Shown here piece after piece: positions 8,745 through 35,588 of a stretch of 35,588 nucleotides of DNA; position 1 is the first letter of the stretch; each line of letters starts with the position of its first letter. The notes under the pieces were generated by a model. It was not told the DNA's origin and ran no database searches. It saw only the letters and a list, made by a program, of their open reading frames with translations. The translations under genes were made by a program, and so were the position numbers. This DNA comes from Kiritimatiellia bacterium (GTDB lineage: Bacteria; Verrucomicrobiota; Kiritimatiellia; UBA8416; JABMPJ01), in the NCBI GenBank assembly GCA_016783675.1, contig JADHWE010000023.1, positions 1 through 35,588 on the forward strand, in the 5' to 3' direction.

Positions 8745-9254
8745 CTACCAGTACTCCACCACGGTCTTCACGATCTGATGGGCGAGGTCTTTCGCGGCCT
8801 CGGGCAACGCTTCCATTTTACCCACCGACAGGTCTCCGCTCGGCTCGAACGAGGATTCGCCACGGACGAGCCGGCGCGACAAGCGTTCGTCTGACTCGCT
8901 ACGGTAGAAATCAACCTGTGCAATGATGACCAACCGGTATTCCTCCGCCGTACGGCTGTTATCCTCGTCGTAGGCCAGGGGTTGGAGTTTGAATGTCTGG
9001 AGCTGAATATCCAGGTAAGCGTCGGCGGCTTCCTCCGATGCGATGCGCAGCGTGCCATCCTGCTGGAACTCCCGGATCGCGGCCTGCGTGGTCGTGGTTT
9101 CAAGTCCCGGCTCGCCTGTCCGGTTGACAAAGGTGGGGATATAGAGCGACCGGATGCCGGGTGGCAGGGTCGTGCCCAACCGGTACCCCAGGCAGCCGCC
9201 CAGAAGCGGCGTCAGCGTCATCAGCAACACCATCGCTAGTCGCACACGCTTCAT
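8745..9254 (-). CDS. LptE-like LPS-assembly lipoprotein
   Basis: 169 aa; lipobox LLGGC, then 'GYRLGTTLPPGIRSLYIPTFVNRTGEPGLE...', C-terminal 'LPEAAKDLAHQIVKTVVEYW'. Confidence 0.82.
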   Translation of the reverse strand: MKRVRLAMVLLMTLTPLLGGCLGYRLGTTLPPGIRSLYIPTFVNRTGEPGLETTTTQAAIREFQQDGTLRIASEEAADAYLDIQLQTFKLQPLAYDEDNSRTAEEYRLVIIAQVDFYRSESDERLSRRLVRGESSFEPSGDLSVGKMEALPEAAKDLAHQIVKTVVEYW

Positions 9255-10258
9255 TTCGATTCCTCGACGGACGCGGTCAACGCCTCCAGCTCGCGCACGC
9301 GAACACTCACTTCCTCGGCCTGCTCCGCGTACGGGAACCGGCGCAGGAAGTCGCCATACGCAATCAAGGCTGACTCGGGGCGCTTGGCGATTCGGTCATA
9401 GTAGGCCGCCCGGTCGTAGTGCATCGTGCATAGCCGACTGCTCAGCCGCTCACGTTCAGCCGTGACCTGCTCCACGTTGGGATCGTCCGGGTAGTCGCGG
9501 ATGAAACCGGCCAGCCCCTCCAGGGCCCGCTGACAGGTTACTTCGTCGCGCTTGCTCTTGTCCGCAAGTCGAACCAGGCAGCGCGTACCGCCGAAGGCGG
9601 CCGTAACGGCCAGCTCATGGCGTGGCCAGCGCTGTCGCAGCGTGTCATAGGCACGGATGGCTCCTTCGTACTGCTTGTCATCTTCCTGGATCCATCCGAT
9701 GTAGAACTGGACCTCGGGTCCCCTTCCCCACGTGGGCGCGTTCTCCGCAATCTGCTCGAACAGCGGCAGCGCGCGTTCGGGTGACTTGAACCCGGGCAGG
9801 AAGAGCAGGCCGCCGTAGCGGCGATTCATGATCTCGTTGGCGATGCGAAACTGGTGGTCCAGTACGTCGCCGTAGTCGAACGCTCCCGCATAGAAGTCGA
9901 CGAGGTATTGAAACTCGTTGAAAGCTGCGTCATACTTGCCAAGGTCCTCGAGAATTTCGGCGTAGGCGCGCTGGGCCTTCACGGCCTCGGGCGTGTCGTG
10001 CCACTCGTGCACAAGCGCCCGGTAGTGCCGGGCCGCTTTCCGCTCGTTGCCTTCCGCCTCAAGCGCCTGGGCATGGGTGAGCTGTTCGGCCGGGGTCTCC
10101 TTTTCCGGACGACGCCAGAATCCGGCACGCTTGCGCTGGACTCCCTCCTGCTCCATCTCGCCGAACCCATCCATGGCGGGATCCTGCGCCCAGGCACCCG
10201 CGGCCAGGAGCAACGTCACAACCGTCATTGAGGCTATCTGGAACCGTCTCGCTTTCAT
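9251..10258 (-). CDS. Tetratricopeptide (BamD/YbgF-like) periplasmic protein
   Basis: ORF listed to 10330; likely ATG 10258 (MKARRFQIASMTVVTLLLAAGAWAQ signal peptide); TPR-like repeats 'YRALVHEWHDTPEAVKAQRAYAEILEDLGKYDAAFNEFQYLVDFY'. Confidence 0.78.
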   Translation of the reverse strand: MKARRFQIASMTVVTLLLAAGAWAQDPAMDGFGEMEQEGVQRKRAGFWRRPEKETPAEQLTHAQALEAEGNERKAARHYRALVHEWHDTPEAVKAQRAYAEILEDLGKYDAAFNEFQYLVDFYAGAFDYGDVLDHQFRIANEIMNRRYGGLLFLPGFKSPERALPLFEQIAENAPTWGRGPEVQFYIGWIQEDDKQYEGAIRAYDTLRQRWPRHELAVTAAFGGTRCLVRLADKSKRDEVTCQRALEGLAGFIRDYPDDPNVEQVTAERERLSSRLCTMHYDRAAYYDRIAKRPESALIAYGDFLRRFPYAEQAEEVSVRVRELEALTASVEESK

Positions 10259-10296
10259 CCGGCTAAAGGTAGGCACGAGCGCTCTGCCGGTCAAGC

Positions 10297-12234
10297 TCAC
10301 TCTCCCATCTCCTCGGCGGCGGCCTCCCATTGGCGGGTGGCATAGTCGATCTCATCCTGCAGATCTTTGAGGCGCCGGTTCAGTGTTCCGAAATCTGTCT
10401 CGGGATCAGGGGATGACAGCGCGTTCAGCACCTGGGCCTTCTCCCCTTCCATGAGCTCGATGCGCTTCTCGGCCTTGCGGATGATCTGCTTGTAATGTCG
10501 TTCGGTCGCCCGCTTCTCTTCGCGCTCACGGGCGCGCTCACGCCGGAGTGCTTTCTTATCGCCTGGAGCCGGGACCGCGGATTTCTGTGTGTTGCTTGAG
10601 GCCCGGGCGGCAGATACCTGGCGCGGCGCCTGGTCGACCCGCTCCCTATAGTAGTCGTATCCCCCCGCATAGGCGGTTATGCCGGGCGGCGTCATGGCAA
10701 TGACCGAGGTCGCCACTTTGCGCGCAAAGTCAACATCGTGCGTGACGAGGCAGAGCGTCCCGCTGTAGCTCGACAAGGCCTTCTCAAGCGCCTCGCGCGC
10801 CTGGATGTCGAGATGCGTGGTCGGCTCATCCAGCAGCAGGAAGTTGGGAGGCTTGATCAGCAGTCGCGCAAAGGCCACACGTATCTTCTCGCCACCACTG
10901 AGCACCTGGATGGGTTTATCAATGCTCTCGCCCGAGAAACCAAACCCGCCCAACAGCGTTCGCACTTCCTGGTCGGGGACATCGGCGGCCACCGATTTCA
11001 CCGCTTCGTAGACCGTCTGGCGCGGATTCATGGTCTCGGCGAAATCCTGCGACTGGTACCCCATCACCACCTTGTGGCCAACCACCCGCCGCCCTTCGGA
11101 CAGCGGCAGTACGCCGGAGAGCATACGCAGCAGCGTCGTCTTACCCAGTCCATTCAGCCCCACCAGCACGATCTTCTCGCCGCGCGTGATTCTCAGATCC
11201 AGGTGGCGCAGCACCCAGCGCGAGCCGTCATAGCTCAGCCCTGCTTCATCAAGGCGCATCACTTCCACGCCGCTGTGCGGCGGCGGACGCAGCCGGATAG
11301 TGCCCGGACTTCTCAGGCGCCGGGGGCGCTCGACACGTTCCATCCGTTCAAGCATCTTGATCTTGCTCTGTACCTGCGCCGCCTTGGTGCTCTTGGCCCG
11401 GAAGCGTGTAACGAAGGACTCGATCTGCTCGCGGCGGCGATCCTCGTTTTTCTGGGCGGCCAGGCGCTGCTCGTAGCGCAATTCGCGCTGTGACACGTAG
11501 GCGTCGTAGTTGCCGCTGTAGCGTTCACCCTCACCGCCGGATACTTCCAGTGTCACGCTCGTGAGTGCGTTGAGCAGGTAGCGGTCATGCGAGATCAGTA
11601 GGAGCGTCCCCCTGAACTCGCGCAGGTAGCGCTGCAGCCATTCGATTGTCGGGATGTCGAGATAGTTGGACGGTTCGTCGAGCAGCAACACCTCCGGCTC
11701 CGCCACCAGGACGCGTGCCAGCTCCGCGCGCGACTGCCATCCGCCACTGAACGAGCCAATCGGCTGCTGGAACGCCGCCTCGTCGAAGCCCAGCCCGCTC
11801 AAGGCCTGCTCCGCCCGCGGACGCATGTTGTAGCCGCCCAGGGCTTCGAAGCGCGTCTGGACCTCGCCCAGGCGAGCCAGGAGTTGCGTCTTGGTCGGCT
11901 CTTCCACGTCCTCGAGGCGCGCCTCGATTGCGTGCGTCTCCTTTTCCAGTTCGAGCAACTCAGGGACGGCCGCCTCCACATGATCCAGGAGCGGCCGTTC
12001 GGCGATGCCGCTTGCGGCGTGTTGTCGTACATAACCCAGGCGACAGTCGTTGGGCAGTTGGACATTGCCGCTGTCCGGCTCCATTTCGCCCACGATCAGG
12101 CTGAAGATCGTCGTCTTGCCGGCCCCGTTCGGCCCGACAATACCGATGTGCTCCCCCGGGTTGAACCGGAAGCTCACGTCATCGAGTACGATCTGCGCCC
12201 CGTACCGTTTTGTGACTCCATGGAAATCTACCAT
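10297..12234 (-). CDS. ABC-F family ATP-binding protein (Uup/EttA-like)
   Basis: Two ABC cassettes: 'GPNGAGKTT', 'FSGGWQSRAELARVL', 'LLLDEPSNYLDI' and 'GLNGLGKTTLL', 'LSGGEKIRVAFARLL', 'LLLDEPTTHLDI'; coiled-coil C-terminus; ORF listed to 12315 but MVDFHGVTKRYG at 12234 is the likely start. Confidence 0.93.
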   Translation of the reverse strand: MVDFHGVTKRYGAQIVLDDVSFRFNPGEHIGIVGPNGAGKTTIFSLIVGEMEPDSGNVQLPNDCRLGYVRQHAASGIAERPLLDHVEAAVPELLELEKETHAIEARLEDVEEPTKTQLLARLGEVQTRFEALGGYNMRPRAEQALSGLGFDEAAFQQPIGSFSGGWQSRAELARVLVAEPEVLLLDEPSNYLDIPTIEWLQRYLREFRGTLLLISHDRYLLNALTSVTLEVSGGEGERYSGNYDAYVSQRELRYEQRLAAQKNEDRRREQIESFVTRFRAKSTKAAQVQSKIKMLERMERVERPRRLRSPGTIRLRPPPHSGVEVMRLDEAGLSYDGSRWVLRHLDLRITRGEKIVLVGLNGLGKTTLLRMLSGVLPLSEGRRVVGHKVVMGYQSQDFAETMNPRQTVYEAVKSVAADVPDQEVRTLLGGFGFSGESIDKPIQVLSGGEKIRVAFARLLIKPPNFLLLDEPTTHLDIQAREALEKALSSYSGTLCLVTHDVDFARKVATSVIAMTPPGITAYAGGYDYYRERVDQAPRQVSAARASSNTQKSAVPAPGDKKALRRERAREREEKRATERHYKQIIRKAEKRIELMEGEKAQVLNALSSPDPETDFGTLNRRLKDLQDEIDYATRQWEAAAEEMGE

Positions 12235-26445: not shown

Positions 26446-28245
26446 ATGTCCAGATTTCTGCCAGTCCTGCTGCTGATCACGATATGCGGCTGTGCGGGCC
26501 CGGAATACAAGATCCACGAGTCACGCGACGATGCGCGTGCCATCAAGACACTGAGCGGCCCCGCCGCGGGTGAGGATCTGCAGTGGCACGGCGTTGGACG
26601 GCTCTCACTCGAGCTAAAGCGGCTGGAAGCTTTCTCGTCCGAACTTTCGGACATCGCCCGGGAAATCACGGGCCTTCATCGTGCCGTCGGCGGCAAGAAG
26701 AAGATCGAGTTCTACTCCATGGACGAGCATGACCGGATCGAGAGCATGCTTTTCCGTTACCTCGTCTGCCGTGAGGCGCTGTGGGATATCGCCAGCTACT
26801 ACGGCAAGCGCCAGGGCCTGTTCACCAGCTCGACCGACAAGGTAAAGGGATTCATCCTCGCCTACAACGCGGCCCTCAAAGTGCAATACACCGACACTAA
26901 GCTGGTCGTCACGTTCCTCGACGAACCGGTCACGGTGACCAAGCTCAACGCCGGCTACGCCCGCTGCCGTATTCCCGCCGGAAGCTTCGATCGCATCTTC
27001 CACGCCGTCACATCGGTGGACCACCTGGAAGCCATGGAGGCATCCTGGAAGTTGTTCAAGGAAGAGGCGGACAACCCGAAATCGAAGATCTCGAAGGTCG
27101 CACGGTCCGACGACGTATACGGGGCCCTCGTCCGCGACATCCGGATCCAGCGACTCTATGCCAAGGCACAGACCGACCGTCTCCTGGACAAGACCTCGAC
27201 CCTCTTCCCTAACATGACGAACCGCATCCGCCAGTCCAAGGTTACCGAGCTGGCCGCCACCACCAGGGACGCGTTCAAGACCGGCATCGGCGCTTGTGGA
27301 TCCCTGGTCGGCGGGGTAACGACCGCACTCATCAAGGCTCCGCTTTCCACGACCGTACAGTGGGGACTCGGCGATCTGAAGAGCATGTTTGCAGCGGCCC
27401 AGCCCGGTGACATCATTCTCACCGTACGCGAAGGCTATCTCTCCAACATTATCATACCCGGCGAGTTCAAGCATGGCCTGACGTTCGTCGGCTCGGTTTC
27501 CCAGCGACGGGCAGCGGGACTCTCGAAGAGCGCCTTGGCCGGTGTCCCGGCCCCTGTGCGACAACGCACCTCGGAGCACTTCTTCCGGTCCAGAGACGCG
27601 ACCGGTGCCGCCGCCAACTGTATCGAGGCCGTTTCGGAAGGCGTTGTCATGAGTTCCACGCGCCGCCTGACGCGGCTGGCCATGAGCAAGGTCCTGATTC
27701 TGCGACCTGTTCTGAGCCCGTCTGATCGTGTTGGGCAGCTCGGCGCGGCGTTTTCCCACCTCGAAGAACCGTACGATTTCAAATTCAACTTTGCTGACAA
27801 CAGCAAGCTCTGCTGCACCGAGTCCATCTACCGGAGCCTCAACGGCCGCGGCAAGGTGGCGTTCAGCCTCGTGAAGCGGATGGGCATCATGACGCTTAGT
27901 GCGGACGACATCATTCGCACCTACTTCCGCACACTTGATGGCGACAATCCCATGCTTGAGTTCATCGCCCTGGCCGAGGAAGTACCCGGGTCGGCAAAGC
28001 ACCTGGGGCGTGTCTTGACCGGGCCGGAAGGCCTTGAACGGCTGCGCGTCATCATGAACATTCCTGCCCCGCGTGCCGACGGAGAGACCGTCAGCGGCCT
28101 TCCCGACGCACCGGCCCTGCGGGACAACGATCCCACACAACTGCGGCTGGCCTGTGCCGCCCCTCTCTCAACATCGCCCTTGTATACCTATGAATCCATC
28201 AACAGGAGGTCGCCATGCTCGATCCCATCACTGCCCTCATTCTGA
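26446..28245 (+). CDS. Lipoprotein with C-terminal YiiX/YebB-like (NlpC/P60-related, permuted papain-fold) domain
   Basis: ATG 26446 with SD; lipobox 'LLLITICGC'; 'AQPGDIILTVREGYLSNIIIPGEFKHGLTFVG' (His), 'CIEAVSEGVVMSST', 'PYDFKFNFADNSKLCCTESIYRSL' (Cys). Confidence 0.75.
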   Translation: MSRFLPVLLLITICGCAGPEYKIHESRDDARAIKTLSGPAAGEDLQWHGVGRLSLELKRLEAFSSELSDIAREITGLHRAVGGKKKIEFYSMDEHDRIESMLFRYLVCREALWDIASYYGKRQGLFTSSTDKVKGFILAYNAALKVQYTDTKLVVTFLDEPVTVTKLNAGYARCRIPAGSFDRIFHAVTSVDHLEAMEASWKLFKEEADNPKSKISKVARSDDVYGALVRDIRIQRLYAKAQTDRLLDKTSTLFPNMTNRIRQSKVTELAATTRDAFKTGIGACGSLVGGVTTALIKAPLSTTVQWGLGDLKSMFAAAQPGDIILTVREGYLSNIIIPGEFKHGLTFVGSVSQRRAAGLSKSALAGVPAPVRQRTSEHFFRSRDATGAAANCIEAVSEGVVMSSTRRLTRLAMSKVLILRPVLSPSDRVGQLGAAFSHLEEPYDFKFNFADNSKLCCTESIYRSLNGRGKVAFSLVKRMGIMTLSADDIIRTYFRTLDGDNPMLEFIALAEEVPGSAKHLGRVLTGPEGLERLRVIMNIPAPRADGETVSGLPDAPALRDNDPTQLRLACAAPLSTSPLYTYESINRRSPCSIPSLPSF

Positions 28246-29009
28246 AGGTCGTCGCTTCGGCGTGCGTCAAGTTCTACCTGTCCAGCCTGCTGGGAGCCGG
28301 CCAGCTCGCCTACGATTCGGGAGAGCTCGGCTACAAGATCCCGAAGTGGTACATGAATCCCGGGCGTGTCAGCAAAACGTTCTACTCGTACGGCACCTCC
28401 GTGAGCGGAGACGAATTTGAATCGCTTGAAGATGCACGCCGCCGGGCCATCGACCAGATGGCTCAACACATCCGACTCAGCAACCGTGCGATCGTCGAGA
28501 AGCAGGTCCGCTACGACGCCAATAGCGTCAAGCAGCGTCGCCTGATCGAGCTCTTCGTGCGTGGTGACGGGCTGGAGCAGTTCATCCGAATGAACGCCAA
28601 ACTGGACAAGAAGCAGCTCGTGCGCGTCACCATGCCACGTGACGACATGCGTGCGTTTGTGCGGATGGATATGAAGGCCAAGACGTATATTGCCTACCAG
28701 AGCAAATCGCTCAATGCCTTGAAGACGCGCCTAATGCAACAGAAGACGGATGATATTCTGGACGAAATGCAGGCCGAGTTGGCGGCATGGGAAAAAGAGG
28801 CGGCCGCCCTGCCCGGCGGTCTGCCGCCTTCCGGATTCAAACCCGGAGAGATCGCGCCTTTGCCGGCGGAGATGCCGGACGCGGATAGCCTGGAGCTCCC
28901 CTCATCCCCCGCCGATCTGCCCTCCCCGGCCGCGGGCCCTGTCCCGGGCGCAGCGACAGGTGGTGGTCCGTGGAGCGACATGGAGAAGGAGCTGAACGAC
29001 GCGAAATAA
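28215..29009 (+). CDS. LPP20-like domain protein
   Basis: 264 aa; 'IPKWYMNPGRVSKTFYSYGTSVSGDEFESLEDARRRAIDQMAQHIRLSNRAIVEKQ'; proline-rich C-terminus; SD aggaggt; overlaps the upstream lipoprotein gene. Confidence 0.72.
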   Translation: MLDPITALILKVVASACVKFYLSSLLGAGQLAYDSGELGYKIPKWYMNPGRVSKTFYSYGTSVSGDEFESLEDARRRAIDQMAQHIRLSNRAIVEKQVRYDANSVKQRRLIELFVRGDGLEQFIRMNAKLDKKQLVRVTMPRDDMRAFVRMDMKAKTYIAYQSKSLNALKTRLMQQKTDDILDEMQAELAAWEKEAAALPGGLPPSGFKPGEIAPLPAEMPDADSLELPSSPADLPSPAAGPVPGAATGGGPWSDMEKELNDAK

Positions 29010-29020
29010 CGGGTTAGCCC

Positions 29021-29102
29021 GGCCCGCTCGGAGAGCGGGCCCTACCTGACCGTTCGCGTAAGCGTGACCATGGGCAAGGTAGGCCCGCGCTCCGCGCGGG
29101 CG
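29021..29102. repeat. REPIN/BIME-like inverted pair (divergent, perfect hairpins)
   Basis: Left 29021-29046 GGCCCGCTC-GGA-GAGCGGGCC-CTACC region; right 29078-29102 GGTAG-GCCCGCG-CTCCG-CGCGGGC. Confidence 0.82.
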
Positions 29103-29108
29103 GAAAGA

Positions 29109-29145
29109 AAACAGCCGACGGATCGTAAGATCGCGTCGGCTGTTT
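29109..29145. terminator. Bidirectional-looking intrinsic terminator
   Basis: AAACAGCCGACG (29109-29120) pairs with CGTCGGCTGTTT (29134-29145); flanking T-rich cgttttcattttgttttg. Confidence 0.85.
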
Positions 29146-29174
29146 CGTTTTCATTTTGTTTTGGTGACGCCCGA

Positions 29175-29756
29175 CTACTGGAGCATTCCACCGTCCTGGG
29201 CCTTGAACTCTTCGAACTTCTTAACTTCGTTATCGAGTTCCGCGAAGGCCTGTGAAGCGCGGAAGCGCGTGTACAGGGCCTTGGCCGAGTTCTTCTGGTC
29301 CGCGAACGCATCGGCGATGACCTTCGGATCCTGCACCATCAAGGCCCAGGATGTGGTCGTGTTACCGGTGGTCTCATACTTGATGTCCTTGGGCACCGTG
29401 CCGCGCAGGATCTGGTGAGCAATGCTCTTGCTCGCCGCGCTGAACAGGGCGTTGTACTCGGCTGATTCGCCTTCGCCGATTTCCTCGGTGAAGTCCTTCT
29501 TCAGTGAGTCTACCTTGGTTTCAAGAATATGGGCCAATTCGGTCCGGCCGCGTGTCTTGGCCTTGTCCATCGCCAACGACATCGTGCGCGAAGTTCCGAT
29601 ACCCACGGCCGCCAGGCCGCCGGCATCCGTAATGGCATTCGCCTTCTCCTGCATGATCTCGAATGGCGTCTTCTGACTTGTTACTTCGGTCGACTTGCAG
29701 CCCACCACCGTCGCCATGACCAGCGCCGCGAGCGCCACCAACATGACTTGCTTCAT
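29175..29756 (-). CDS. LPP20-like lipoprotein
   Basis: ATG 29756 with SD; lipobox 'MATVVGC'; 'GGLAAVGIGTSRTMSLAMDKAKTRGRTELAHILETKV'; ORF listed to 29795. Confidence 0.72.
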   Translation of the reverse strand: MKQVMLVALAALVMATVVGCKSTEVTSQKTPFEIMQEKANAITDAGGLAAVGIGTSRTMSLAMDKAKTRGRTELAHILETKVDSLKKDFTEEIGEGESAEYNALFSAASKSIAHQILRGTVPKDIKYETTGNTTTSWALMVQDPKVIADAFADQKNSAKALYTRFRASQAFAELDNEVKKFEEFKAQDGGMLQ

Positions 29757-29910
29757 AACCGGACCTCCTTCTGTTGCGCCCTCCCGCGAGAGCATGTCTG
29801 TTTACATTCTACGCATCACCACTGTTCCCAGCATCCGAGCTGATGCTATCCACGTCTTTCCAGAACAATCAAGAGCCTTTTTCCGCTGTCGCGGAGAAAA
29901 CGCAGGCCAC

Positions 29911-30834
29911 CTACTTCCGTGCTACCCCGTTACGAGGTACCCGTACCGTCACCAGGCAGACCCGCCGACCGGGATCGATGACGCGACGCAACACGCGTAC
30001 GCCACGCATACGCAACACGATTTCTTCCCTGACGGCATCCTCCTGCACAGCGTCATCGATCGACCGCGCCGTGCTGAATTGACGCTGCAGGTGGCTGAAT
30101 TTCACAACCATGCTACGCGCCAACTCATGGATCGCCTCTTCTTCCGTGCGCCGGAACGACGCCATCGGGTTGCCATATCCAAAATCGCCGGCTTGCACCA
30201 CCTGGTAGTAGTCCCTGGTCTCGGTCCAACCCGGATGCAAGTCCAACCCCGCAACATAGTCACGATCGAAGCGCTCCATGCCGTCGAGACACTCCCCCGT
30301 TTCGAGCAAAAGGTTCGTGAAGTTCTCCGGCGCGGCCTGCATGGCGTCGGCATGATCGAGACTGAAAAGAACAAAGGCGCCGAACCGGCGTCGCACGTAG
30401 GAGCCCAGCACGTTCATGCGATCGAGTTCCGTATCCGCTTCACCAACGGCGCGGGCGATGGACGCCAGTCGACGCTCGATCCGCCGGCGGCCCACATCGT
30501 AATGGAGTTTGTCCACCACCACGTTGTCTTCGCCGTATTCGTCGGTAATGCTGAAGCGCCGGAACACGCCATTCACCACAAAATCATCCGCTCCCAGGCA
30601 ACGCACCACGCCGTACACCACCCAGGCCGGCAACTTGTAACGGTCACAGAACTGTGCCAGGTGGGCCGGGCAGGTCATGTGCAGGTTGACGGGTGCATCC
30701 TTTTCGAGGATGGCCGACGGTTGCGTCAGCCAGGTCGGCAAGTCCATGCTCCCGCTACGGGGCAACTGGGACGTCGTAGCGCAACCGGACAGAAGGCACA
30801 TGGCAACCAGCAGCAATGATACGCGAGCCATCAC
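29911..30834 (-). CDS. Lipoprotein of unknown function with LPP20-like motifs
   Basis: 307 aa; lipobox 'LLSGC'; 'MDLPTWLTQP' near the N-terminus; 'GDFGYGNPMASFRRTEEEAIHELARSMVVKFSHLQRQ'; start overlaps the M48 gene stop. Confidence 0.7.
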   Translation of the reverse strand: MMARVSLLLVAMCLLSGCATTSQLPRSGSMDLPTWLTQPSAILEKDAPVNLHMTCPAHLAQFCDRYKLPAWVVYGVVRCLGADDFVVNGVFRRFSITDEYGEDNVVVDKLHYDVGRRRIERRLASIARAVGEADTELDRMNVLGSYVRRRFGAFVLFSLDHADAMQAAPENFTNLLLETGECLDGMERFDRDYVAGLDLHPGWTETRDYYQVVQAGDFGYGNPMASFRRTEEEAIHELARSMVVKFSHLQRQFSTARSIDDAVQEDAVREEIVLRMRGVRVLRRVIDPGRRVCLVTVRVPRNGVARK

Positions 30835-32087
30835 TGTTGGACCGCCCCCTCTCCGGCGCCGCCGGCGCCGGGCTCCGCCCGGCCGGACATCATGAGAAAC
30901 CGACTCGCCAGACGCTTCTGTCCGGAACGCGCCATCTTGTAGCGGGAGATGCCTGACTGGATCGTCTGTAGCCGTTCACCGATGCCGGGATGGTGACGGA
31001 AGGCATCCATCTCGGCCGACCCACCCACACGCTGCAGGAGCTCAACCATGGCTGTTGGATCGTAACCAGCGGCCGCGGCATAGGCCGTGCCAAACAGGTC
31101 GGCCTCCAGCTCATCCTCCCGCGCACGCCCCCCGATGATCTTGAGGTACGAGGTATCGGCCAGCCGATTCAGATCAGCCTCGATGGCACTGGTGGAACTA
31201 TCCCCCGTGATGGCATCCAGCTCGGCGAAGACGGCATCACGGCGACGATGAATCTCGCGTTTCTTGAACTCGCGCAGTCCATGGTAGAGGCTGACGTGCG
31301 CCATCTCGTGTGCAATCACGCAGGCTAGCTCCGCTTCGTTCTCAATCCGGTCCAGGTATCCCTTCGAGATCAGGATGTAGCCGCCCGGCATGCCGAAACC
31401 GTTGACCGAGTCGTCGTTGAGAATCGCAACCTTGTAGCGGCAGTCGTAGCGTTCCGTGCGCGCGCCCACCAACATGGCCACGCCATTGACGTAATCGATC
31501 AGCTGTCGGTTGTTCACGAACCCGTTCTCGGCGAGGTGCGCCACCATGGCCTGGCCGAGCAGATCCTCGGCCTCGTTGCTGAGGATGATGGTGGCGTCGA
31601 ACGGGCGACGCGGCAGGCGGTCGTACATCCATCCAGCCGGTGCCGGTGCCAGGCGCTTGGCCAGCATCGCGATCAGCGACGGCGATACGTTAATCGACTC
31701 CATCTGCTTGCCAACGTTGACATCGACACCGTGACGGTCGGAATAGGATGACGCAAAGGCCCCCTTCGTGGCGGCGGCAATGTCGACGGAGGACACGTTG
31801 ACCGCCTCGCCGGCGGCGAGCAAACCGGAGTAGTCAATCCCGCGGCGCGGCGCAGTGAGTGCAACGCGAGGAATCCAGCCGTTCGTCACGGCTGTCTCTG
31901 CCTCAACCCAATTACCGAATGCGTCGCCGGCATCAATGAACTGCCCGGCCTTCAGCAATTCACGAACGGGAAAGAAGGCGCCGGGACCGCTGCGCATCGC
32001 CGTGTTGCGCCGCAGCTCTTCCGCCTGTGCCATCGTGAGCGCCAGCAGCAGAACAGATCCGATTCGCACCGCGCTTCTTTGCATCAT
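30831..32087 (-). CDS. M48-family metalloprotease with N-terminal SH3b domain
   Basis: ATG 32087 overlaps the upstream stop; SH3b 'ELRRNTAMRSGPGAFFPVRELLKAGQFIDAGDAFGNWVEAE'; zinc motif 'ACVIAHEMAHVSLYHG'; 'EDELEADLFGTAYAAAAGYDP'. Confidence 0.9.
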   Translation of the reverse strand: MMQRSAVRIGSVLLLALTMAQAEELRRNTAMRSGPGAFFPVRELLKAGQFIDAGDAFGNWVEAETAVTNGWIPRVALTAPRRGIDYSGLLAAGEAVNVSSVDIAAATKGAFASSYSDRHGVDVNVGKQMESINVSPSLIAMLAKRLAPAPAGWMYDRLPRRPFDATIILSNEAEDLLGQAMVAHLAENGFVNNRQLIDYVNGVAMLVGARTERYDCRYKVAILNDDSVNGFGMPGGYILISKGYLDRIENEAELACVIAHEMAHVSLYHGLREFKKREIHRRRDAVFAELDAITGDSSTSAIEADLNRLADTSYLKIIGGRAREDELEADLFGTAYAAAAGYDPTAMVELLQRVGGSAEMDAFRHHPGIGERLQTIQSGISRYKMARSGQKRLASRFLMMSGRAEPGAGGAGEGAVQQ

Positions 32088-32626
32088 AGCCTGAATCCAA
32101 TACCCACCGATGCGTTCCATGTATTGAAATCGCTCAGCTTCTCACTAACGGTCTGATCATCAAAATCCAGGTCCAGCCAGATATAGCGGAAGTCTCCCTC
32201 CACGAACACGCGGTCACTCAGCTTGTAATCCAGGCCGAGACCAAGGTGCCATCCAAAATCAAAATCCGAGTCGGACTCATCCTCTTCATCGATCTGGCGC
32301 GCAATGTACGCACCGACGCCCGCGAGAAGGTAGGGCGAGAAATCCAGGTCACGGCGCAGCACAAACACCATCGCGCTCAACTGGATCGGGATCAGTTCGT
32401 ACTCCACCCCGTCTTCGTCGTGCGAGTGATACATGATTGCCCCTTCGGTCATCACAACACTTCGCCAGGGAAGCCTCAAGTAGGCGCCGCCCATGAATGA
32501 GCCCTCACCTTCCTGGAAGCCCTGGTACCCGACACGGAAACCCAAGTCGGCCATGGCATCCCCACCCGCCGTCGCCACCATCGCACACGCAAAAACACAC
32601 ACGACTATGCCCACAACTCTCTTCAT
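32084..32626 (-). CDS. Outer-membrane beta-barrel protein
   Basis: ATG 32626; signal peptide MKRVVGIVVCVFACAMVATAGG; 'SPYLLAGVGAYIA', 'GWHLGLGLDYKLSDRVFVEGDFRYIWLD', 'NASVGIGFRL'; ORF listed to 32869. Confidence 0.82.
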   Translation of the reverse strand: MKRVVGIVVCVFACAMVATAGGDAMADLGFRVGYQGFQEGEGSFMGGAYLRLPWRSVVMTEGAIMYHSHDEDGVEYELIPIQLSAMVFVLRRDLDFSPYLLAGVGAYIARQIDEEDESDSDFDFGWHLGLGLDYKLSDRVFVEGDFRYIWLDLDFDDQTVSEKLSDFNTWNASVGIGFRL

Positions 32627-32659
32627 GACTGACTCCTTTTCTCCCCTCGATTTCCGACG

Positions 32660-32735
32660 TCCGCCTGCCCTCCGAAGCTTCAGCGAAGGAGGGACTTCCG
32701 CTTGCCCTCCATAGCCCGAAGGGCGACGAAGGGAC
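32660..32735. repeat. Two imperfect direct copies of an approximately 37-nt unit 'tccgcYtgccctcc...gaaggga'
   Basis: Copy A 32660-32695 tccgcctgccctccgaagcttcagcgaaggagggac; copy B 32697-32735 tccgcttgccctccatagcccgaagggcgacgaagggac. Confidence 0.65.
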
Positions 32736-32750
32736 CTCTGTCCTCCGATA

Positions 32751-33716
32751 CTACTCCAGTCCGAACAGTCCTGCAAAACTGAATCCGAACCCCTGTGCGC
32801 GGGCCCGCATGCCCAACTTGGCACGCGCCCGCGTTTGACGCGAGTCGCATTTTGCCACGCACGAATCACCGAACACGCGTACCGTGCGGGCGATGCCGAC
32901 GACCTGGTCCGAAACCATCTCGCCCATGAGGGCGTTCTGCCGGCTTGTCCGCATCAGAAGCTCCCATTTACGGTCTCGCCGTACCCCTTGGTTGGAGCCA
33001 CGGTTGATCAGGATCTCGCGGGCGGTCTCCCCTACCCCGATGACGTGGCCGGTCAGGGGAAACTGGGTGTAGAGGGGACGGATGATGCGACTGCTCCGGG
33101 CTGCCTGGCGTGCCGCGTTGTGGGCCATCTGGTCTGGCGAAAACTGGTGCGGCTTATCATAGCTGGTCTGGGTCTGCGAGTTCTGGAACTGGATCGTCCG
33201 CGCCATACCCGTCTCGGGAATGACGAGGGTCAAGTGCCCGCTGACGTCTACCTGCGAGTTGTAGATGTAGCGATTCTTCTTCTTGGACTTGTCATACCAC
33301 GATGTTGCGGCGTTGCGCTTGGGCACGGTCATCGCGGTTACGGTCACGCTGACCAGTCCGTCCGCGCTCGCCACTTCGTATTGCAGGTCCGAAACGCGGA
33401 TGTCTTCACCCGACTGTACCTGTACCCGCAACATCTGTTGCAGCATCTGGGTCGTGCGCGCATCGGTGCTGACATTGAGAATGCCATACTTCGCCAGTTG
33501 CTGCTTCAGTTCCGCACTGAAGGTCTGCTCCAACACGCCGTAGCGGCCCGACGTGGGGGAAATCACGACACGCCAGGGCCGGTACACCAGTTGATCCCGC
33601 GAAGGCATCATGTGATCCGGCAGCGGGACCAGCGGGGCGATCGGACCCGTCGATGCACAGCCGCACAGCAATCCCAGCGCGACCATCATCGCCAGTCTCG
33701 CAGACAGGTACTTCAT
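32751..33716 (-). CDS. CsgG/FlgT-C-like lipoprotein
   Basis: ATG 33716 preferred (ORF listed to 33728); lipobox 'LLCGC'; 'WRVVISPTSGRYGVLEQTFSAELKQQLAKYGILNVST', C-terminal 'GETAREILINRGSNQGVRRDRKWELLMRTSRQNALMGEMVSDQVVGIARTVRVFGDSCVAKC'. Confidence 0.62.
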   Translation of the reverse strand: MKYLSARLAMMVALGLLCGCASTGPIAPLVPLPDHMMPSRDQLVYRPWRVVISPTSGRYGVLEQTFSAELKQQLAKYGILNVSTDARTTQMLQQMLRVQVQSGEDIRVSDLQYEVASADGLVSVTVTAMTVPKRNAATSWYDKSKKKNRYIYNSQVDVSGHLTLVIPETGMARTIQFQNSQTQTSYDKPHQFSPDQMAHNAARQAARSSRIIRPLYTQFPLTGHVIGVGETAREILINRGSNQGVRRDRKWELLMRTSRQNALMGEMVSDQVVGIARTVRVFGDSCVAKCDSRQTRARAKLGMRARAQGFGFSFAGLFGLE

Positions 33717-33724
33717 AGGACGGT

Positions 33725-34795
33725 TCAACCTTCCTCGTTCAACATCGCCGCCACGCCCGCCTCCAGTCGCGCGGCCAGGCGAGCCAGGCTACGCGTCCGC
33801 GAGAGCTGTTCCGAGCTCGACCGGCTGGAGCTGGCCGGCCCGGCCGGTACCGCCCCTTCCAGGATCGTCTTCCCCTTCTCTACCAGTTTAAACGACGAAC
33901 CGGAAGCCACTTCGTAGATCCGCATCGAACCAACCTGGGTCGAGGTCTTGACCTCTACCTGTACCTGCAGCTCACCGGCGGCGTTTGCGTCCACCACGGT
34001 GAAGCCGGCCCGACGCAGCGCCTTGCTTGCCGCCTCACGCAACGAAGCCGGCAGTCGCTTGGCGGAAGCGGAGCGCAGGCTGATGCGCAGCGTGGCCCCG
34101 GCAAGCGCCGTATCGCGCTGGGCGGAGACATCGTCCTTGAAAGACTCGATCTGCCGTTTCGCTTCGCCTTTGCGCGACGGCGCGAAAATTGCAAGGGCCA
34201 CGGCCAGCCGGTCCAGCTCCGTGATCATACGGTCAAGCCGCCGCAAGGCTACCAGGTCATGCACCGGTCCACGCCCCAATCCGGTCAGAACATCGCGCCC
34301 CTGCGCGAGGCGTTGCGCCACCGCTTCCGCCGCGCCCGCGCCCGCCCGCGTCCGGTTGAGTACGGCCAGCGCATGCCAGTTCAGCGCGCGCTCGTCATAG
34401 TAAGTTCTCTTGATCTCCACGCCGCTGAGCATTCCGGTCACGACACGCTTGGTTGTCTGTATGCGCACGCTCTGTTCGAGGAGGCGACCGTTCCGTTCCA
34501 CGCTGGTGTCATAATCTTCGATCGTATCGTTGATCTGCACTTCCACCACGGACGCGATATCCGCCACCGCCATGCCCTCGGCCTGCTTGCGGCTCATGAT
34601 ATCCGTCGTGCCGGCCCCGCCACACACGCCCATCCCGATGAAATTGGAACGACGGGGGTACTGCTTCTCGATAGCCGCCGTATCATACACCCATTCCGGC
34701 ATCCCCTTCCGCCCGCCACTGCTGGCGCAGCCGGACAACAGCACACAAACCCCACCCAGTGCCGCAAGCTGGAGATACAAGTGCCGTCGAGTCAT
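33725..34795 (-). CDS. LPP20-family lipoprotein
   Basis: 356 aa; lipobox 'LLSGC'; 'GMPEWVYDTA...FIGMGVCGGAGTTDIMSRKQAEGMAVADIASVVEVQI'; long C-terminal region. Confidence 0.8.
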   Translation of the reverse strand: MTRRHLYLQLAALGGVCVLLSGCASSGGRKGMPEWVYDTAAIEKQYPRRSNFIGMGVCGGAGTTDIMSRKQAEGMAVADIASVVEVQINDTIEDYDTSVERNGRLLEQSVRIQTTKRVVTGMLSGVEIKRTYYDERALNWHALAVLNRTRAGAGAAEAVAQRLAQGRDVLTGLGRGPVHDLVALRRLDRMITELDRLAVALAIFAPSRKGEAKRQIESFKDDVSAQRDTALAGATLRISLRSASAKRLPASLREAASKALRRAGFTVVDANAAGELQVQVEVKTSTQVGSMRIYEVASGSSFKLVEKGKTILEGAVPAGPASSSRSSSEQLSRTRSLARLAARLEAGVAAMLNEEG

Positions 34796-35169: not shown

Positions 35170-35588
35170 TCACAGGCTGCCGGCCGCCAGACTGATCTCG
35201 GCCATGGGTCTGTACTTCACCTCGCGGCCCTGCTTGTTTCGATGAATCAGTTCGGACTCCAGCAGCCCTTTTGCCGCGCGAGATATGGCCGTCTGGTGCT
35301 TGCCCAGGCGTTCCGCAAGTTGCTTCTGCGTCAACTCGCCGGCTTCGCCTAAAGTCTTCAGAATGGCATATCGGAGCGTGCCTTTACCGACGCCGGCGAG
35401 CCGGGCGGCCGACAGTTCGGCCAGCAGCGTGCACGCCTCCGCTTCGGTAATGGCCTCGTACATTGGGTTCCCCGCGATGGCGAGACACAATTTGGAGCAT
35501 ATGATGAACGTCTCCCGCAGACTGCCTCCCGATGCCTCGTGAATGCGCGCAAGCAGTCTGGGCTCGATCGGGTTGCGCGCCTTCCGGC
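35170..35588 (-). CDS. Winged-helix (MarR/ArsR-like) DNA-binding protein, partial at the window edge
   Basis: 'AILKTLGEAGELTQKQLAERLGKHQTAISRAAKGLLESELIHRNKQGREVKYRP'; listed start (35490) is TTG, and the frame stays open to the window end (...RKARNPIEPRLLARIHEASGGSLRETFIICSK-). Confidence 0.75.
   Translation of the reverse strand, partial: RKARNPIEPRLLARIHEASGGSLRETFIICSKLCLAIAGNPMYEAITEAEACTLLAELSAARLAGVGKGTLRYAILKTLGEAGELTQKQLAERLGKHQTAISRAAKGLLESELIHRNKQGREVKYRPMAEISLAAGSL

Follow-up and report, generated by a model that had tools for sequence, protein, structure and literature searches.

Among described envelope systems, the JspA-LppA pair of Sinorhizobium meliloti consists of an M48-LysM protease and a lipoprotein helper (PMC10659215), and the M48 protease BepA acts on outer-membrane (OM) assembly (PMC7950410). 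In flagellated species, LPP20 proteins associate with the OM and serve as ring components or as accessories of the motor (PMC12222027, PMC11756786). YiiX, which belongs with YaeF to MEROPS family C92, had a bound fatty acid in its crystal and has been proposed to be a lipid-amide hydrolase (PMC3142127), and LnsA provides a precedent for action on acylated lipoproteins or lipids (PMC7387801). Both M48 proteases and LPP20 lipoproteins are widespread, but beyond E. coli and the flagellated bacteria most of them have no assigned role. The eight-gene locus described here is made mostly of known parts in a clade-specific combination, and it carries a real signal of co-inheritance; no paper describing the cluster was found in the literature. 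The tendency of its genes to be inherited and lost together points to an uncharacterised OM maintenance set, and the reading that we prefer, with a probability of about 0.4, is a clade-specific cluster for OM maintenance, with an exported M48 protease and a partner lipoprotein at its centre. From the comparisons below we infer its OM location, the partnership of the protease (E) with the lipoprotein (D), the substrates and a joint pathway.

The window, 35,588 nt in length, is one whole contig (C17) of a Kiritimatiellia metagenome-assembled genome (MAG) of 2.6 Mb and 71.6% completeness, and five genomes of the genus (G000-G004) were compared. Eight ORFs had been marked by the first-pass annotation, and the presence and position of each, from A (starting at 26446 on the plus strand) to H (starting at 34795 on the minus strand), were borne out. 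They form two convergent units, A-B and H-G-F-E-D-C. A bidirectional, intrinsic-terminator-like hairpin lies between the units (29110..29144), with a near-perfect stem (-25.0 kcal/mol), A-rich sequence before it and T-rich sequence after it; the B-C intergenic region also holds a GC hairpin (29018..29041) with a fold of -18.5 kcal/mol. An Rfam search of the 35,588-nt window gave no match, and the promoter scan found none. The reading frames of F/E and E/D overlap by 4 nt each and those of A/B by 31 nt. Overlapping stops and starts had been described more broadly along the block; because H-G, G-F and D-C are separated by gaps of 8, 124 and 154 nt, genuine translational coupling is limited to F-E-D and A-B. 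The earlier description of the N-termini as signal peptides, lipoboxes or hydrophobic segments stood: A, C, D, G and H have clear lipoboxes, the N-termini of E and F are signal-peptide-like, and that of B is hydrophobic with an unconvincing lipobox. Sorting to the OM was assumed from lipoboxes without Asp at +2, following the E. coli rule. GC3 is similar throughout the block (0.68-0.79) and so gives no indication that any part of it was recently acquired from elsewhere. Upstream of H, the window contains a gene for a MarR-type winged-helix regulator (35170-35586) that runs off the contig end. In G003, the DNA immediately upstream of H carries transposase and integrase-like fragments (L052:8037-9729), which places the 5' border of the block near mobile DNA.

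E (30831..32087, minus strand) encodes an exported SH3b-M48 zinc metalloprotease, as had been proposed. The M48 domain was matched in Pfam (1.1e-21), and the SH3b domain was confirmed via relatives of E that match SH3_3/SH3_4. In all seven members the HExxH motif (260-264), E326 and HPx4R (366-372) are invariant, the last being the plug motif that is a hallmark of the M48 family (PMC7950410). E therefore shares with the BepA/LoiP-type proteases an M48 domain with HExxH, Glu and the HPx4R plug, but differs from them in its SH3b N-terminus, in giving no match to a TPR domain, and in being clustered with LPP20 lipoproteins. The NCBIfam BepA model gave a domain match of 4e-20 that scored 72 bits against a cut-off of 570. 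The E-D pair would resemble JspA-LppA in joining an exported M48 protease, one that has an additional wall-type domain, to a dedicated lipoprotein. In contrast to JspA, E has SH3b in place of LysM and carries no lipobox; D is set beside LppA by description and not by sequence, and the comparison covers the protease and the lipoprotein, not the ExoR pathway.

D (29911..30834, minus strand) is a lipoprotein of a new family with a possible LPP20/SHS2-like C-terminal domain. Its assignment as LPP20-like survived only weakly: there is no Pfam LPP20 match, and in the hhalign comparison with LPP20 the aligned region was signal and linker only, but the AF2 model (pLDDT 60) gives a weak fold hint at the C-terminus, where the order is beta-alpha-insert-beta-beta-beta. 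Among the PDB matches listed for this model, the one with the highest probability was Tip-alpha, at a non-significant E of 0.38; Tip-alpha is a structural relative of Lpp20 according to the title of Vallese et al., as cited in PMC12222027. The named relatives found with D are MAGs of Kiritimatiellia, Lentisphaerae and Verrucomicrobia, the closest by D identity being Kiritimatiellia bacterium, isolate Arabian11_MAG_24. D lies directly downstream of E in the genus (family f1), in G007, in G028 and at L074, and outside the genus the E-D pair was found in G007 (family f4), G028 and G029 (both f15), and L074. The F-E-D order also recurs in G007, with F upstream of E-D. F itself (32084..32626, minus strand) was correctly called a small OM beta-barrel, its match to the OMP_b-brl profile being 1.9e-17 (64.5 bits against a cut-off of 28.7).

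A clostripain/caspase-like fused protein, followed by a small secreted protein, is encoded 3' of E-D at two loci (L074:1675-5346; L061:6875-10442). This gene is a second protease beside the M48-D pair in two genomes, L061 and L075 being the G028 locus.

By analogy with these systems, the likeliest reading of E and D is as an M48 protease and its dedicated lipoprotein partner in envelope quality control. E would be made together with D, which as an OM lipoprotein would anchor E, position it or feed it, so that E may act at the OM in the manner of JspA with LppA or of BepA at the BAM machinery. F may be co-translated with E-D as an OM partner or a substrate, and the LPP20 proteins H and C, with the lipoprotein G, could supply an OM scaffold or clients. 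A would work alongside them in that compartment, its targets being acylated molecules (lipoproteins or lipids), and B would be its companion in the membrane. The protease, the lipoprotein partner, the LPP20 proteins and the YiiX-type enzyme form a concrete partner set for testing, and B, D and G would add two or three undescribed protein families.

A (26446..28245, plus strand) is a lipoprotein with a C-terminal C92/YiiX permuted papain-like domain, and its earlier naming as such was upheld by the Pfam Peptidase_C92 match (1.8e-7; 31.8 bits against a cut-off of 27). As in YaeF and YiiX, the permuted papain-like catalytic residues are kept: H343, E394 and C456/C457 are invariant in 12 relatives, and E394 is the putative catalytic acid. 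A differs from YaeF and YiiX in its lipobox and its conserved N-terminal region of about 310 residues. B (28215..29009, plus strand), which overlaps A, is a membrane-anchored protein of a new family, with relatives of 43-85% identity in the genus, G007 and G028. The idea that B is an LPP20 protein was not sustained, as it matched no family and hhalign to LPP20 aligned the signal and linker only.

Two further species (G001 and G003) of this genus have the eight genes in unchanged order, although in G003 F is broken, leaving a 133-aa frame. Purifying selection was seen on all eight genes, with dN/dS of 0.02-0.19 in the comparisons made. Gene order conserved in two same-genus genomes, together with low dN/dS where measured, argues that the layout is not a matter of chance. 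G004 lacks A, and its H-G-F-E-D, GH20-B and C are each on a separate contig, so the block cannot be regarded as a fixed operon. It consists of two units and a free-standing C gene and is not a single assembly operon (L054/L055). Because G004 keeps H-G-F-E-D and B without A, A is dispensable to the rest.

This arrangement in G004 also fits a tenable alternative, in which two ordinary and unrelated units, an M48/LPP20 lipoprotein operon and a YiiX-lipoprotein pair, stand side by side and their adjacency is simply an inherited position. The convergent orientation of the units with a shared terminator agrees with such an account, as do the many relatives of A that are found away from D. The distribution of the genes in relatives speaks against it. 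The first-pass annotation had named a lack of co-occurrence in relatives as a result that would refute its reading, and the set survived this test: the block proved to be syntenic in the genus, and A-E were found together in two other families of the order. A, B, C, D and E are all present in G007 (on three contigs) and in G028 (on at least four contigs) but are unlinked there, and since A-E are carried over several contigs, linkage alone does not explain their joint occurrence. In G007, moreover, B and C are again convergent neighbours.

The counts across the class also show co-occurrence, with a signal that rests on few lineages. Of the 347 class genomes, 51 have C and nine have D, and all nine with D also have C (p = 1.7e-8 for D within C genomes, uncorrected for kinship). 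In the order outside the genus, small samples without tree correction gave, by genome and by family respectively, p = 0.001 and 0.002 for C with D, p = 0.011 and 0.029 for B with D, and p = 0.006 and 0.081 for A with D. The last of these family-level values is not significant, and neither is the family-level value for A with C (p = 0.08). D and C are adjacent in the genus, in G014 and in the distant G137, from another family of the class. Elsewhere C is usually solitary, beside housekeeping genes.

The fifth species, G002, holds a decayed copy of the block, with separate lesions disrupting H/G, D and E, and with F and C intact. A single deletion has joined the opening codons of H to the final 43 of G, only the last 15 codons of D remain, and E carries a frameshift immediately ahead of its third zinc ligand. 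Three independent lesions that spare F and C suggest a common function of H, G, E and D with which G002, the one MAG concerned, has dispensed. A and B were not found in this 88%-complete genome, where H/G, E and D have decayed, and this too speaks against two unrelated units.

The first-pass annotation had suggested an undescribed OM-associated assembly and had pointed to the rings or pores that FlgT-C and CsgG-like folds form. One such assembly would be an LPP20-based ring or pore in the OM, like the FlgO/FlgP/FlgT H-ring of Vibrio but without a flagellum; its ring would consist of H and G together with D and C, F would be the barrel, and E and A would remodel it. FlgP, Lpp20 and FlgT do share an SHS2-like fold and some members of the family form OM rings; ring formation, however, goes with a hairpin insert that is found in a subset only (PMC12222027). 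H (33725..34795, minus strand) is a true LPP20 lipoprotein, as annotated: PF02169 scored 26.2 bits against a gathering cut-off of 25.9, and LPP20 was matched by all four H orthologs (best 1.8e-7). The LPP20 domain is common to H, and probably to C, with the Vibrio H-ring proteins and Helicobacter Lpp20. A sub-threshold FlgO hint was seen in one H member, and in the window FlgO was matched by H alone, at 14.6 bits, far below the cut-off of 22.6. The absence of flagellar genes held as far as it was tested, with FlgI, the flagellar P-ring gene, absent from all five genus genomes, and G and B match none of the H-ring families. G (32751..33716, minus strand) is a genus-specific lipoprotein of no recognisable family, and its five occurrences among 335 class genomes all fall within the genus. 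The proposed FlgT/CsgG-like identity of G did not hold: no match was found in Pfam or the PDB, no FlgT profile matched, no G ortholog matched CsgG at E up to 10 (HMMER filters on), and the AF2 model had a pLDDT of 38. PDB profile searches with A1-A5 likewise gave nothing credible. A ring or pore is unsupported by these results, and we regard it as improbable. A flagellum-independent LPP20 assembly of the OM, with H, G, D and C as subunits, F as the barrel, and E and an acyl-active hydrolase A to build or remodel it, appears slightly less probable still.

C (29175..29756, minus strand), a small LPP20-type lipoprotein, is the most conserved gene of the block. Its LPP20 assignment is probable at the family level, through a class relative in G147 (27.7 bits); the protein in the window itself scored 17.4 bits, below the cut-off of 25.9. 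When B, C, D and H were compared by profile for a shared origin, the alignments covered signal peptides or looked like chance, except that of H with the triad LPP20 protein described below. C shares 98% identity with its ortholog in G003, with dN/dS of 0.02 and pS of 0.29. Its synonymous divergence from G003 is about half that of its neighbors, which suggests high expression or recent exchange.

H also has a homolog in the LpoB-TPR-LPP20 cluster of Kiritimatiellia, since it aligned by hhalign with the LPP20 protein of that triad at 96.8% over 247 columns; in contrast to the triad, no LpoB or TPR partner lies beside H, and the block has no TPR gene. The triad, LpoB, a protein of about 480 aa and LPP20, is conserved in families f15, f31 and f41 of the class (L164-L170, L175, L178 and L179), and its middle protein is TPR-like by eye, with no Pfam match. 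G as a replacement for LpoB in the genus was considered and rejected: LpoB is present in 291 of 347 class genomes, including 3 in the genus, and G gave no match to it (hhalign probability 3.9%). H and G were found in no genome outside the genus in searches of the relatives and the class. In G004, a second LPP20 cluster (L173:2466-5285) encodes an LPP20 protein, an unassigned lipoprotein and a 328-aa protein that is barrel-like by eye and has no Pfam match.

That G is the LptE of this organism, and the block part of LPS transport, is hinted at by three of four G members (best 9e-5, in one member), but this very improbable reading is rejected because a genuine LptE (PF04390, 49 bits against a cut-off of 23) lies at 8748-9254 in the same window, where G itself scored 11.3 bits, and because G is genus-restricted and has no LptD beside it. 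The genuine LptE gene overlaps by 4 nt a gene for a TPR lipoprotein (together 8745-10330) that matches YfiO/BamD just over the cut-off.
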